Positions 14,631 to 20,396 of a stretch of DNA of 64,000 bases are shown here, piece by piece. The stretch is from Brevibacterium sediminis (GTDB lineage Bacteria > Actinomycetota > Actinomycetes > Actinomycetales > Brevibacteriaceae). Every line of letters begins with the position of its first letter. Position 1 is the stretch's first letter. The position numbers were made by a program, and so were the translations under genes. Below the pieces are notes generated by a model. The model made no database searches. It was not told the DNA's origin and saw only the letters and a program-made list of their open reading frames with translations. Where the stretch lies: positions 1-64,000 of the forward strand of contig NZ_JABKDD010000015.1 in NCBI RefSeq assembly GCF_013623905.1, in the 5' to 3' direction.

Positions 14631-15557
14631 GTGAAACCGATGGATGATGGAGTGCGCCCTATGCCGATCATGGATGAGTCGTCTCCCATTGGTGCCGCGA
14701 TTGCACGGGACAACCGGCGAGCGGATCGACTGTCGCAGACAACCTTTCCACGGCCGGACTCGACCCGTATCTTCACGATCGCGAACCAGAAGGGTGGCGT
14801 CGGAAAGACCACGACGGCGGTGAACATCGCAGCGGCCCTGGCCAATCAGGGGCTCAATGTGCTGCTCATCGACATCGATCCGCAGGGAAACGCGAGCACC
14901 GCCCTGGGCATCGACCACTATTCCGAGGTCACGAGCATCTATGACGTCCTCATCGATGACGTTCCCATGCGCGAGGCGGTGGCGCAGTGTCCGGACTTCG
15001 ACACTCTCAAATGCGTACCGGCCACCATCGACCTCGCCGGCGCGGAGATCGAACTCGTGTCTCTCGTCGCACGTGAACAGCGACTGCAGCGTGCCTTGGG
15101 CATCTACCTCAAGGAGGAGGAAGCAGCGGGAGACCGCGTCGACTACATCATCATCGACTGCCCGCCCAGCCTCGGTCTGCTGACGGTGAACGCTTTCGTG
15201 GCCGCTCGCGAGGTCCTCATCCCGATCCAGTGTGAATACTACGCACTCGAGGGCCTCAGCCAGCTGCTGAAGAACATCCAGCTCATCCAGAAGCACCTCA
15301 ATCCCGAATTGGCAATCACGACGATTCTGCTGACGATGTATGACGGACGGACGAACCTCAGTGCTCAGGTCGCCGAGGATGTGCGCACTCACTTCCCGGA
15401 GCAGGTCCTCGGTACTGCCATTCCACGTTCGGTGAGGATCTCCGAAGCACCGAGCTATGGCCAGACCGTGATCTCATATGACCCACATTCCAGCGGTGCC
15501 CTGTCCTATCGGGAAGCCGCCGAAGAAATTGCGAATCGAGGAGTAAGTCGTGGCTGA
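14631..15557 (+). CDS. parA: Chromosome-partitioning ATPase ParA
   Basis: The 308-residue Walker-type ATPase (Soj/ParA) binds DNA non-specifically and moves ParB-parS complexes. The deviant Walker A KGGVGKTT is at 54-61, DIDPQGNAS follows as motif A', and [11 protein letters not shown] is Walker B. A non-conserved N-terminal extension of about 45 residues precedes the fold. The GTG at 14631 or the ATG at 14640 could start it; GTG is listed. Its 3' end overlaps parB by 8 bases, so the pair is co-translated. Confidence 0.95.
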
Positions 15558-17559
15558 ACGCAAAAAGAGGGGCCTGGGGCGCGGACTCGGAGCATTGATC
15601 CCCGACGCGAACTCCAATGATCGTCCGGTCGATGTCTTCTTCTCCGGCGGGAACTCGGAAGACGGCAAACGCGAGAGCGAGACGAAGACGTCACGCACTG
15701 CGCGCACGGACCCAGCGGCGTCGATGCAGTCGTCCCGACGACGCAAGCCGAAGGCATCCGGGACAACTCGATCGCCGTCCACGACTTCCGGGGCAGATAC
15801 TGAGACTGAGGCGGCTGCCTCGAAGACAGCATCTTCGAAGGCCGGGTCGGCGAAGGCCGAGGCGACAAAATCGGGAACGACCAAGGCTGCGTCGTCCAAG
15901 GCCTCTGCGTCCAAGGCCGCAGGTTCGAAGTCCACCGCCGCTGAACCGACCGCTTCTAAGTCCACTGCGTCTAAGTCGACAGGGACGAAGACGGCGACCT
16001 CCAAGACGTCGGGAACGAAGGCATCGACGGTGAAGTCGAACGCATCGAAGGCGACTGCACAGAAGGCGACCGGGAGCGGTTCCTCCAGAACTTCTGCTGG
16101 CGCCAAATCGACGTCAACGAAGACGAAGGCTGGGTCTTCTTCTGCTCGGCCGGCGTCCGGTCCGTCCTCTGCTTCCTCAGTTGAGAGCGCACAGAAGGCG
16201 TCTGCAGCGCCGAAGAATACGACGCGGAAGACATCGTCCTCCGCCTCGGTCTCTGACTCAGCAACGGGCTCAGGCGAAGTTGAGACTCCAGCGGCGAGCT
16301 CGTCTGCTGATTCCACTTCGGTTCAAGTGGCTGACAATGAAGCTGTTGACGTGAGTTCTGACCTCGTCAATGACCCTCAGGTCCCAGAGGCCACTTCGGC
16401 AACTGCATCGGCATCGTCGGCCGAGGATGATGTTCGAGAAACGCATCCCGGCGTATACACGTCATCTGGGCGAAGCCATGCTGACAACGAGGCGGATGAA
16501 GAAGGCCAGTCCGGTGTCAGCGGAGTTGACGAACATGTTGCTACTACGAATATAGTCGAATCAGAGGCAGTGGATGCCCTAGACGAGACCCGTCCGGCGG
16601 CGGCCTCGGAATCAGAACCTTCGACAGCTTCCGAATCCGATAACGGGACGAGCCGTTCAGCTTCAATCGGACAGCCGGGTGACTCCGACACCGTAGTGAC
16701 TGCCGATGAGGGCGAACTCGACGATTTCGAAGGTGTCGAGTCGATTCCGGATACCGAATTCGGTGAGATCGATGTCGATCTCATCGATGCGAACCCCAGG
16801 CAGCCGCGAACGGTCTTCGATGAAGATCTGCTGGCGGAATTGGTCCACAGCATTCGTGAGATCGGTGTCCTTCAGCCTGTCGTAGTCAGGCAGAAGCCGA
16901 GCGACCGCTCGCGCTTCGAGCTCATCATGGGTGAGAGGCGTCTTCGCGCGACGAAGGACGCTGGTCTGTCGACGATTCCGGCAATCATCCGGTATGTCGA
17001 AGATACAGACCTTCTCCGTGATGCGCTTTTGGAGAACCTGCATCGTGCAGAGCTCAATCCGCTTGAAGAGGCAGCGGCTTATGGCCAGCTGCTCGAGGAC
17101 TTCGGGTGTACGCAGGAAGAACTCTCCGAGCGCATCGGGCGTTCTCGTCCTCAGATCTCTAATACCCTGCGTCTGCTGCGTCTTCCTCCTCTGGTGCAGA
17201 GGCGGGTCGCTGCCGGCGTCATCTCGGCCGGTCACGCTCGAGCGATTCTCGGACTGCGCGATCCGGAGCATATGGAAGTGCTGGCGCAGCGGATCGTTGC
17301 TGAGGGTCTGTCCGTCAGGGCATCGGAAGAAGCTGTCGTGCTGCTCAACCGAGGCGACTCCATCAATGTTTCACGTGCAACGACCAAGGTGTCCCCTGAG
17401 TTCATCGCTGTAGCTGAACGTTTGGGTGATCGACTCGACACTAAGGTGAACATCTCCGTTGGCAAACGCAAGGGCAAGCTGAGTGTGGAGTTCGCGAACC
17501 AAGAGGACCTCGACCGTATTCTCGGTCTTTTGGGTATCCCGAACGAGGACGCGCTGTGA
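15550..17559 (+). CDS. parB: Centromere-binding CTPase ParB with a giant bipolar linker
   Basis: This 669-residue ParB is about twice the usual 330-380. Residues 1-18 are the ParA-stimulating peptide ([14 protein letters not shown]). Residues ~55-235 are almost only Lys, Ala, Ser, Thr and Gly, in repeated SK/TK units resembling histone-H1 or AlgP tails. Residues ~240-400 are acidic and Ser/Ala-rich. Residues 402-669 are the normal core: NPRQPR (415-420), the CTP-binding GERRLRA (461-467), [17 protein letters not shown] (495-511), the parS-binding helix-turn-helix [18 protein letters not shown] (521-538) and the C-terminal dimerisation domain. Start is GTG, overlapping parA. Codon use becomes noticeably T-rich at third positions toward the 3' half. 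A near-consensus parS lies inside the gene at 17368-17381. Confidence 0.95.
17368..17381. promoter_or_regulatory. parS site 1 (one mismatch), inside parB
   Basis: GTTTCACGTGCAAC differs from the palindromic parS 14-mer at one position. It lies within the parB coding sequence (codons for NVSRAT). Confidence 0.75.
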
Positions 17560-17579
17560 GCGGCTTGCTATAGGCGAAG

Positions 17580-17611
17580 ATGGGCTTCGGGGTGTTCGCC
17601 CCGAAGCCCAT
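17580..17611 (+). terminator. parAB operon terminator
   Basis: A perfect 13-bp stem, ATGGGCTTCGGGG and its complement, around a 6-base loop (TGTTCG), followed by TTTCC. It begins 20 bases after the parB stop and marks the end of the rightward run from rpmH. Confidence 0.9.
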
Positions 17612-17726
17612 TTCCATTATGCGGAACTCGGTTGAGGCTGTCGTATCAATTCAACGCGCCGGTATCCACAAGTTCGCTATTGACGGTATTAGGCCACTCT
17701 CTCGCTTGTGCAATGGCGTTCACACC

Positions 17727-17740
17727 GTTTCACGTGAAAC
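17727..17740. promoter_or_regulatory. parS site 2 (exact)
   Basis: GTTTCACGTGAAAC, perfect 14-bp palindrome, first site after the parB terminator. Confidence 0.95.
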
Positions 17741-18022
17741 GGCGCGACTGCAGGTTCGTTCGGCGTCGACTCTCCATCCGTTGAACGCGGTTGTTGATGG
17801 AATTCGAGCTTCTTCTGGCAAACAGACGAAATGCATTCAGAAGAAGCCTAGTATGAAGGTCCACAGGGGTGGCTCTTGCAGCTGCTATGTGCGCCCTGCT
17901 GAGCGAGCATGTTCCGCTGTCAAGAGGTGGACTCCAGGAATCCATAGCCTCATTGATGTGGGCAGGTGGCCCGATACCGTGGGATGTGGTCTTCATTGCG
18001 AGAGGAATTTTCCTGAAGTCTT

Positions 18023-18036
18023 GTTTCACGTGAGAC
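18023..18036. promoter_or_regulatory. parS site 3 (one mismatch)
   Basis: GTTTCACGTGAGAC, one change in the right half; flanking T and A extend the palindrome to 16 bases. Confidence 0.8.
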
Positions 18037-18144
18037 AGACGAGACGGATCGGTTGTCGGAACTTCCCCTGGAGTAGCCAGGTCCTGGTTTCGGACGGCTT
18101 GGATTACTTGTTGGAGGGTAGGCATGGCGCGTGGACCGGTCCCT

Positions 18145-18158
18145 GTTTCACGTGAAAC
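18145..18158. promoter_or_regulatory. parS site 4 (exact, 16-mer)
   Basis: GTTTCACGTGAAAC flanked by T and A, so the full TGTTTCACGTGAAACA is present at 18144-18159. Confidence 0.95.
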
Positions 18159-18301
18159 AGGTCGGTGCTATGGCTGTGCAACAGGCAGCGCGGCTTTCCA
18201 CAACCACATCTGGACCCTACTGAGCCTCCTTAGACTCAAACGCGGTATGTTGGTTCTCAAGCGTCTGCGTCACTCCCCGAAGACGCACGGGCTGAATCTC
18301 T

Positions 18302-18315
18302 GTTTCACGTGAAAC
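18302..18315. promoter_or_regulatory. parS site 5 (exact)
   Basis: GTTTCACGTGAAAC, 157 bases after site 4. Confidence 0.95.
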
Positions 18316-18690
18316 CATGTTTGATGCGTCCGGGAGTCTCAGGTGACTAGGTAGGTGACGTGCGATCTGGAGCTCTGCTAGGACTCTGATCGCATCAATC
18401 GTCTGACGGTGAATCGAGTGGTGATTTGGGGTTCTCAGTCAACGCATGTCTCTTCCTGAGAGAATGTATGTCGGAAGTATAGAGAGGCATTCAAAGCTTC
18501 CCTTCCGCTTCCACCAGCTCCTTTTCCGGCTGTTGGAGTGCCGGTAGCAGGCAGAGTATGGACCACTGTAGCCGCATATTCCGGTTGCGCGGGATGGAGA
18601 ATCAGCGTGAATACGGATCCGACGGGGCGTTGGATATGAGCCGGCAAGGTGTTCGCGGGTATAGAGCGCCAGGGGCAACGTGCGAGTGGT

Positions 18691-18704
18691 GTTTCACGTG
18701 AAAC
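18691..18704. promoter_or_regulatory. parS site 6 (exact, 16-mer)
   Basis: TGTTTCACGTGAAACA in full at 18690-18705. Confidence 0.95.
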
Positions 18705-19026
18705 AGCTGTCAGTCGAATGGCATTCATCAAAACACACCGTGTCTTCGGGCTCGTTTGTTCACACAAACACTTCTATAGTTCAAGGTTGCCGCGCGCGGT
18801 TTAGTCGCGAATCAATAGCTGCCCACCGGTGGTCACCGCTCCACAAGACACTGAAATACATCAACGGGATCTCTCCTCGGGGGCCCACGTAGCCTCTATT
18901 CGCGGGAGCAGATGAGAGCAAATGGCGGGATTCGCTGAACTCAGGGGTTGTGACTTGGCGAGTATTTTCAACGATCTTCACGGAACCAGAGCACTTCGTC
19001 TCATGAGGAACTGGGTATATGGCGAT

Positions 19027-19040
19027 GTTTCACGTGCAAC
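19027..19040. promoter_or_regulatory. parS site 7 (one mismatch)
   Basis: GTTTCACGTGCAAC, the same variant as the site inside parB. Confidence 0.8.
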
Positions 19041-19328
19041 CTCGTTTCAAGCGATTGAGATGCAACGAGCTGCCTCTCGAAGTGCACCGAAAGAAGTAGT
19101 CGGAGTCAGGATCATTGATACAACGTTCGGGTTGCCCATTCTTTGCCGGTGTCGAGTGTGTCGTAATTGCCCAAAGTTGGCATCATGCGAGCGCCGGTGC
19201 TGGTTCGCTTTGTGTTGCGTGGGAAGGCTTCGTCTGGCTCGTGCGTGCTCAGTCCACTATCGGTGCGCTTGCGAGATGATCACCCCCTACCGGTGATCTG
19301 CTGACGACTAGTTTCCGGTGTAGCGTGC

Positions 19329-19342
19329 GTTTCACGTGAAAC
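19329..19342. promoter_or_regulatory. parS site 8 (exact)
   Basis: GTTTCACGTGAAAC within a longer imperfect palindrome (GCGTGCGTTT and AAACACGCGC flanks). Confidence 0.95.
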
Positions 19343-19554
19343 ACGCGCTGGCGAGTACCATCGCACGGTTGGTGAGCGCATCTACTCGACGCGAAGATAG
19401 CTGTTCTCCGCGTATTGAGGCGTATGCGGGTGGGATAGAACTTCTGGTTGTTTCAGTCTGCTGGGCTGAGGCGGGAACTAGATCATGTTCTGCGCACAGG
19501 TCATATCCCCAACTCAGGGGGTCATCGTCGAAACTACGGCCTCTTCGCTTCGTT

Positions 19555-19568
19555 GTTTCACGTGAAAC
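19555..19568. promoter_or_regulatory. parS site 9 (exact, 16-mer)
   Basis: TGTTTCACGTGAAACA in full at 19554-19569. Confidence 0.95.
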
Positions 19569-19918
19569 AACCGAGCACTGATAAGAGACGCGCTGCTATT
19601 CAACACACGTCTTTGAGCTGAACGAACAGCCCTAGTAGTACTGGATGTAATGAGTATAGGGTCGGGGACTCTCAGCGCCCCGATACCTGATATTTCTCTG
19701 TGCCGAACGCGAATACTGTCGACTACCGTCTCTGACTGGTCCAGTGAATCGCCCGTTCGCAATGATGGCGCTGTCGAAGTGATTAGAGCCGGTGTCCCCG
19801 AAAATGCATGGGCAGTGAAGGCCGGGTTAGCTCGACGTCATAAGGATGCTGTGATGTCAGCCGGGGTTTCTGGGTGTTGTTATAGTCATTGGTCTTGCGC
19901 CATCGGAAAGGTCGTATG

Positions 19919-19932
19919 GTTTCACGTGGAAC
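19919..19932. promoter_or_regulatory. parS site 10 (one mismatch)
   Basis: GTTTCACGTGGAAC, one change in the right half. Confidence 0.8.
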
Positions 19933-20122
19933 GACGGAACTGGACTAGCCTTTTTCGTTGTCGTGTGAGAGCAACTCAGTTCGTGTGTATGGTCGCTGCG
20001 AAGCTACGCGAGGTTGTGGCCGAGAGTTTCAATGAGCAGGCAGTCGTCCAGATGGCTTCGCGCCTCAAAGGAGGGCCCTTGTTGCTCGGGCGATTCGTCG
20101 ATTGAAGTCTACCCAGGCTGTC

Positions 20123-20136
20123 GTTTCACGTGAAAC
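20123..20136. promoter_or_regulatory. parS site 11 (exact)
   Basis: GTTTCACGTGAAAC, the last site; 260 bases without visible features follow before the cwlM-like stop. Confidence 0.95.
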
Positions 20137-20396
20137 ATATCTCTCCCGAGCCCATGCTGGGAGGTCGGTAGGGTTCGGTGCGCGCGCTGCGCGGGGTTAG
20201 TGCGGGTCGACCGTTGTCCGTTGTAGGTGTTGTCCCTGAGTTGTATCAACCCGTCTTCGGTTCTTGAAGAGAGCACCTGTTATCTGTGGTTAGTCGTCTG
20301 GTGCTTTGTCTCCAGAGGGCCAAGACTGAGGCGAGAAGAGCCGTGCTCCTATTCAAGAAGCATGACTCTGGAGGCAGCGAGGTTGAAGCTGGGTGA

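Follow-up and report, generated by a model that had tools for sequence, protein, structure and literature searches.

Chromosomal ParB (Spo0J) proteins, such as those of B. subtilis, C. crescentus and M. xanthus, share the ParB_N, HTH and C-terminal domains and the GERRxRA patch, carry a ParA peptide at the N-terminus, and are accompanied by a neighbouring parA gene and by parS sites in the oriC region. What makes ParB clamps gather into a single focus, and what keeps that focus on the nucleoid, are still matters of debate. The B. subtilis ParB lacks a long arm of the kind described below. It has been reported to phase-separate via its N-terminal domain (PMC11317135), and an arm is therefore not needed for condensation in general. 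The ParB studied here has the same domains, peptide, gene neighbour and parS setting, but between its ParA peptide and its core it has, unlike these proteins, a disordered stretch of about 380 residues with two oppositely charged parts. No title or abstract among the listed open-licence PubMed Central papers concerned an in-frame VSRET parS, the ParB of a Brevibacterium or a ParB linker with two charge blocks, which does not prove that none exists.

The window, which is the whole stretch of 64,000 nucleotides of Brevibacterium sediminis DNA that was analysed, carries gyrA, gyrB, recF, dnaN, dnaA, yidC, jag, gidB, parA and parB, and it is the oriC region. A tree built from four proteins placed it closest, among named entries, to B. 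permense (VKM Ac-2280, Ln26) and B. iodinum ATCC 49514. The parA-parB locus has the following features:

14631..15557, forward strand: parA, ParA ATPase (Pfam AAA_31, 1.3e-59 on 14667-15554)
15550..17559, forward strand: parB, GTG start, open reading frame of 669 aa
15550..15603, forward strand: RGLGRGL N-terminal motif, residues 1-18, kept across the 37 clade-1 ParBs
15622..15651, forward strand: conserved motif, residues 25-34 (clade-1 ParB alignment)
15709..15753, forward strand: conserved motif, residues 54-68 (alignment; short helix predicted at 55-58)
15757..16230, forward strand: basic S/A/T/K-rich disordered block, residues 70-227, net +20 (cumulative charge, AlphaFold2)
16231..16743, forward strand: acidic disordered block, residues 228-398, net -35 (cumulative charge, AlphaFold2)
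16444..16458, forward strand: HPGVY motif in the acidic block, residues 299-303 (clade-1 conservation)
16756..17043, forward strand: ParB_N CTPase domain, residues 403-498 (Pfam; PDB matches 6sdk and 6t1f)
17050..17337, forward strand: HTH_ParB, parS-binding domain, residues 501-596 (Pfam)
17392..17532, forward strand: ParB_C dimerisation domain, residues 615-661 (Pfam)

Judged from its sequence, the product of 15550-17559 is the chromosomal ParB (ParABS) of Brevibacterium, as it combines ParB_N, HTH_ParB and ParB_C with the CTP-binding patch GERRxRA (GERRLRA at 461-467, in ParB_N), a neighbouring parA and parS sites. Across 32 ParB sequences, L9, G10, R11 and G12 of the N-terminal motif and G461-R464, R466 and A467 of the patch are invariant, and residues 1-18 are presumably the ParA-activating peptide. 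According to the ORF list of the window, the parB start overlaps the 3' end of parA, whose own true start may lie slightly downstream of 14631.

About 380 residues separate the RGLGRGL motif from ParB_N, which starts at residue 403, and an earlier note made from the sequence had described this interval as a histone-like linker, first basic and then acidic. The interval itself is real and its disorder and charge blocks are borne out by structure prediction and by the charge profile: cumulative charge divides it into a basic block of 158 aa (residues 70-227, net +20) and an acidic block of 171 aa (residues 228-398, net -35), while AlphaFold2, run with 32 sequences, gave a mean pLDDT of 35-50 per ten-residue block over residues 1-400, with a single short helix predicted at 55-58. 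Such segregated charge blocks are one of the marks of a phase-separating polyampholyte. The word linker suits the length of the interval and not its makeup, since the arm is not uniform: conserved motifs flank a fast-evolving basic-then-acidic stretch, and in the alignment of clade 1 (the 37 closest same-genus ParBs, the window's included) strong conservation is confined to residues 1-19, 25-34, about 52-68, near 299-303 (HPGVY), and from about 395 on. As for the comparison with histones, the basic block (S 25%, A 22%, T 18%, K 14%) resembles the histone H1 C-terminal tail in its disorder and its richness in Lys, Ala, Ser and Thr, but the wording is loose: the Lys content of histone H1 exceeds 14%, the basic block is paired with an acidic one, and a 350-aa piece of the linker had no Pfam match at E up to 10, on which ground histone homology was rejected. 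The same note had put typical linkers at 30-100 residues, which is too short for the order, where the N-terminal region spans 61-263 aa in the resolved ParBs of other families, mostly chosen for their long open frames. A single HU was found in this genome (L184), short and without a tail, and the idea that the arm compensates for a Lys-tailed HU, a form known from some other actinobacteria, was rejected for this reason.

The basic block had one other match in the genome (150 of 629 candidates scored), namely the Lys tail of TopA, topoisomerase I (E=1.3e-4; 81 query residues aligned at 47% identity, with an 11-letter string in common). This TopA gene lies at L183:1507-3255 on the reverse strand, and in Pfam its tail scores below the cut-off against HC2, a histone H1-like protein (E=1.2e-4; 22.7 bits, cut-off 40). 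Actinobacterial TopA Lys-repeat tails consist of K/A/S/T repeats as the ParB arm does, and the basic block shows the Lys-rich low complexity of TopA-type tails; unlike the TopA tail, however, the ParB basic stretch is internal, lying N-terminal to a folded core with an acidic block after it. Lys tails were reported to raise processivity in actinobacterial TopA (PMC7398561), and the basic N-terminal tail of FrzCD to bind the nucleoid (PMC5716589). By analogy with the TopA Lys tails and with a Lys-rich surface of B. subtilis ParB, the basic half of the arm might contact DNA.

In mycobacteria, the segregation protein FtsK likewise has at its N-terminus a disordered extension that is basic (net +23), lineage-specific and unrelated to the ParB arm; in an EMSA it was reported not to bind DNA, and it associates with anionic lipids (PMC13277299), so that charge alone is no proof of DNA binding. 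Unlike the ParB arm, this extension is Arg-rich and about 95-121 aa long, and no acidic half is described for it (PMC13277299). The FtsK case lends support to an alternative in which the arm would tether ParB to a partner, the membrane or the pole: the basic block would attach to anionic lipid or to a scaffold at the pole, HPGVY would bind a partner such as DivIVA or SMC, and the arm would not act on DNA directly. The reported colocalisation of C. glutamicum ParB with DivIVA (PMC9298525) agrees with it, as do the lineage-specific motifs of the acidic block, HPGVY in 37/37 clade-1 ParBs and [AV]V[DE]V, mostly SPVVDV, in 21/26 ParBs of a second genus. Since the similarity to the TopA Lys tail and the parS-array association described below both point to DNA, we consider this alternative unlikely.

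A same-genus survey of 57 genomes gave a ParB match in 56, and the region before the core measures 320-432 aa in 37 of them (clade 1), 245-352 aa in eight (clade 2) and 114-201 aa in 11. The earlier note had proposed an alignment across relatives and had counted absence of the arm from close relatives against it; the arm is present in all 37 close relatives, and its bipolar charge is maintained between species. The charge order lies beyond chance in every clade-1 ParB (permutation p <0.001 each, 2000 permutations), with a basic block of +9 to +23 in front of an acidic block of -22 to -51, and the same layout occurs in 7/8 clade-2 and 0/11 short-linker ParBs.

The sequence beneath this layout has largely been lost. 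Seventeen relatives, 15 of them from clade 1, were compared with the window ParB: core identity is 0.87-0.99 in clade 1, and in 13 of the 15 clade-1 relatives identity falls to 0.32-0.54 in the basic block (shuffled partners, 0.33-0.38) and to 0.30-0.45 in the acidic block (shuffled partners, 0.27-0.31), with 0.62-0.83 in the two nearest. Distant clade-1 relatives are thus at or slightly above the shuffle level, and the acidic block remains slightly above it, indicating that some sequence memory is left. In four close pairs, dN/dS was 0.62 for the basic block, 0.73 for the acidic block, 0.24 for the N-terminal part and 0.02 for the core, and a depletion of charge-changing substitutions was not clear in the basic block of these pairs (13/53 single nonsynonymous changes, about 15 expected).

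The retention of charge was compared with a neutral simulation from the window DNA down to 40% identity (300 runs, position-specific base frequencies, no indels or duplications). From a window start of +20, the simulated basic block ended at a net charge of 3.5 +/- 5.1, with a maximum of 17, against an observed mean of 17.7; given this decay, the basic block is unlikely to have stayed positive over long times unless selection acted or basic units were copied again and again. The acidic charge, which started at -35 and ended at -23.6 +/- 5.4 against an observed mean of -32.4, departs far less from neutral drift and is the weaker result.

These figures bear on two further explanations. According to the first, the arm is an entropic spacer of which only length and disorder matter, giving the ParA-activating peptide a longer reach with any soluble composition. 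The freely varying length of the N-terminal region in clade 1 (320-432 aa) and the dN/dS of 0.62-0.73 in both blocks would suit such a spacer, but the charge order outlasts a near-complete loss of similarity in 37/37 ParBs and recurs in a second genus, and its probability is, in our judgement, low. According to the second, the arm is a mutational by-product whose SK/TK units multiply through slippage or duplication and stay in place without serving a function. The S/A/T/K-rich low complexity and the different lengths among close relatives fit this explanation; moreover, the simulation contained no indels or duplications, so that copying of basic units could also maintain the charge. Against it, the window gene contains only a single, short tandem array (15 bp x 2.7), and composition differs between the halves in 37/37 species; we regard a by-product as quite improbable. 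A tandem-repeat origin of the arm was rejected, that one array being all that was found.

The acidic block also contains a short motif. HPG[VIL][YF] is present in 37/37 clade-1 ParBs (HPGVF in one) and in 0/19 other Brevibacterium, whereas G[VI]YVSRET occupies the corresponding region in 6/8 clade-2 ParBs, and G[VIL]Y was found there in 0/11 short-linker ParBs. The GVY core may thus be common to clades 1 and 2, of which only clade 2 would have preserved the parS-coded VSRET that follows it, and HPGVY probably docks a partner.

A similar arm was found in a second family of the order, which was surveyed with a sample of 139 genomes. Within this sample, the resolved non-Brevibacterium genomes with regions of at least 300 aa all belong to family f11, in which eight of nine genomes have such a region and the ninth has 261 aa. 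Outside both groups, 28 genomes had open frames of at least 500 aa; the 22 that were resolved have regions of 61-250 aa, and the other six, all of family f4, were unresolved or partly resolved. The remaining listed genomes of the order have shorter frames, with a region of at most about 245 aa; outside these, two genomes (G109 and G177) gave weak matches only, and one locus (L211) yielded no ParB core. In an Actinomycetaceae MAG (L171), the ParB region before the core is about 293 aa, and 16 parS lie within 6 kb upstream of parB.

In the f11 genus g14, which we guess to be Brachybacterium, the basic-then-acidic layout is present in 26/26 ParBs (permutation p at most 0.004). These proteins carry RGLGRGL, a counterpart of the residues 25-34 motif (RPxDMFFSG, in 26/26), a basic block of +10 to +25 and an acidic block of -12 to -37, and their cores start at residues 300-488. 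Of three further f11 ParBs, the layout is clear in one (p=0.002) and weak in two (p about 0.04). In a tree of 58 ParB cores, the long-arm state needs two changes by parsimony, and a single long-arm clade, a group chosen after inspection, is weakly rejected (AU p=0.033); the f11 layout therefore probably arose independently of that in Brevibacterium. A single expansion for clades 1 and 2 was also considered and not adopted, the support of 34/12 settling the matter neither way.

Behind parB lies a non-coding gap with the following features:

17560..20396, no strand: non-coding parS array of 2.84 kb, between parB and a convergent gene (ORFs, motif scan)
17726..17741, no strand: parS, 2 mismatches of 16, with a perfect 14-base core (motif scan)
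18022..18037, no strand: parS, 1 mismatch (motif scan)
18144..18159, no strand: parS, perfect (motif scan)
18301..18316, no strand: parS, 1 mismatch (motif scan)
18690..18705, no strand: parS, perfect (motif scan)
19026..19041, no strand: parS variant, 2 mismatches of 16 (motif scan)
19328..19343, no strand: parS, 1 mismatch (motif scan)
19554..19569, no strand: parS, perfect (motif scan)
19918..19933, no strand: parS variant, 3 mismatches of 16 (motif scan)
20122..20137, no strand: parS, 1 mismatch (motif scan)

The genome has 11 sites with at most one mismatch to the 14-mer, all at 17367-20137, ten of them in the gap and one inside parB. The G+C content of the gap is 54% at 18001-20000, below most of the window. 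In clade 1, the gap is 2.3-4.1 kb long and holds 7-12 sites in 25/25 named loci (L107 was left out, its locus being incomplete there). Among the 11 short-linker Brevibacterium, the gap measures 79-850 bp and contains 0-2 sites in nine; in the other two it measures 1.7-2.3 kb and contains five sites, so that these two possess an array without an arm. One short-linker genome (G023, locus L056) has 16 genomic parS (at most one mismatch); only one of them is in parB, and the first 3 kb downstream of the gene are free of them. In f11 g14, where the sites are degenerate, each of the 10/10 genomes has its 2-9 sites (at most one mismatch) no farther than 3 kb downstream of parB. The f11 loci L215-L220 have 12-15 degenerate sites (at most two mismatches, e.g. 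GTTTCCCGTGAAAC) within about 2.7 kb downstream, and their ParB specificity may be relaxed or shifted.

Arm and array were compared across 98 actinobacterial loci with at least 2 kb of downstream sequence, many of them close Brevibacterium and most others being those most similar to the query. At least four parS lie within 3.5 kb downstream of parB in 39/42 loci with a long region (at least 240 aa, classed by length and not by charge) and in 7/56 with a short one. The Fisher p of 1e-16 ignores relatedness and is not to be taken at face value, and few independent origins underlie the association. L048, L053, L107 and six other loci were excluded for having less than 2 kb downstream; L159, where the N-terminal motif was not found and the value of 387 is that of the whole open frame, also stands outside the 98. 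L171, a long-region locus outside both groups, has zero parS downstream. Over the 56 Brevibacterium genomes, region length correlates with the number of parS outside parB (rho +0.43, p=0.0009) because the clades differ; in clade 1 by itself the correlation is negative (rho -0.34, p=0.04), and arm length tracking parS number in this clade was accordingly rejected. An independent-pairs test within the genus had one usable pair and no power. The interpretation in the earlier note is partly supported: the bipolar charge is maintained and long regions accompany dense downstream parS clusters, while the non-specific DNA bridging, phase separation or ParA tethering that it suggested would be possible consequences of the charge.

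One further site lies inside the gene:

17367..17382, forward strand: intragenic parS variant, in frame as VSRAT, in the linker before ParB_C (codon conservation)

Its codons GTT, TCA, CGT and GCA are kept in 36, 36, 37 and 35 of the 37 species, and of the 207 columns of the core whose degenerate residue is conserved, only 9 are codon-fixed, the six besides GTT, TCA and CGT being Gln or His. The site is thus conserved at the DNA level and is probably a functional intragenic parS. In clade 1, a site with at least one mismatch remains before ParB_C, mostly coding VSRAT. Outside clade 1, a perfect in-frame parS (VSRET in frame 0) lies before the core in 17/19 Brevibacterium, with L042 and L053 as the exceptions, and the same holds for the three other genera of the family, each represented by one genome. 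In 8/11 short-linker species, 3-4 parS lie inside parB and 1-3 elsewhere, at least half of the genome's parS being inside the gene. The in-frame codings in Brevibacterium parB (the window and L039-L057) are VSRET, VSRAT or VSRGT.

These intragenic sites raise a DNA-level explanation, in which the linker coding region houses in-frame parS and its length reflects the centromere and not the protein. The VSRET sites before the core in 17/19 Brevibacterium outside clade 1 and the weight of intragenic sites in 8/11 short-linker species are in its favour. However, at up to one mismatch, a parS before the core was found in 0/37 clade-1 parB genes and a parS anywhere inside the gene in 0/26 f11 g14 parB genes, and we give this explanation a very slight chance.

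We tentatively prefer, at somewhat short of even confidence, to read the arm as a charge-coded tether that would grip nucleoid DNA and work together with the dense non-coding parS array, DNA binding being the inferred part. Selection would keep the charge layout of a disordered polyampholyte and a few short motifs, not its sequence. The basic half, beside the ParA-activating peptide, might touch nucleoid DNA outside the clamp weakly and without sequence specificity, while the acidic half, beside the DNA-entrapping core, might prevent the basic half from binding the DNA of its own clamp and might pair with basic halves on adjacent ParB dimers. Loaded at high density from the nearby array, ParB could then form a cohesive, nucleoid-gripping partition complex, which would hold the ParA-activating peptides against nucleoid-bound ParA.

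A broader proposal, which we find rather doubtful, is that regional centromeres co-evolved in two families, each combining an array of about 10 or more parS or parS-like sites behind parB with a charge-coded arm that would cohere the array-bound clamps and grip the nucleoid, and that in Brevibacterium this arrangement replaced an older layout with parS inside parB. The contrast between parS inside parB and a non-coding array behind parB is a small example of centromere evolution. As one genus offers natural ParBs with and without the bipolar arm, and with arrayed or gene-embedded parS, what disordered charge contributes to the cohesion of a centromere can be tested directly.
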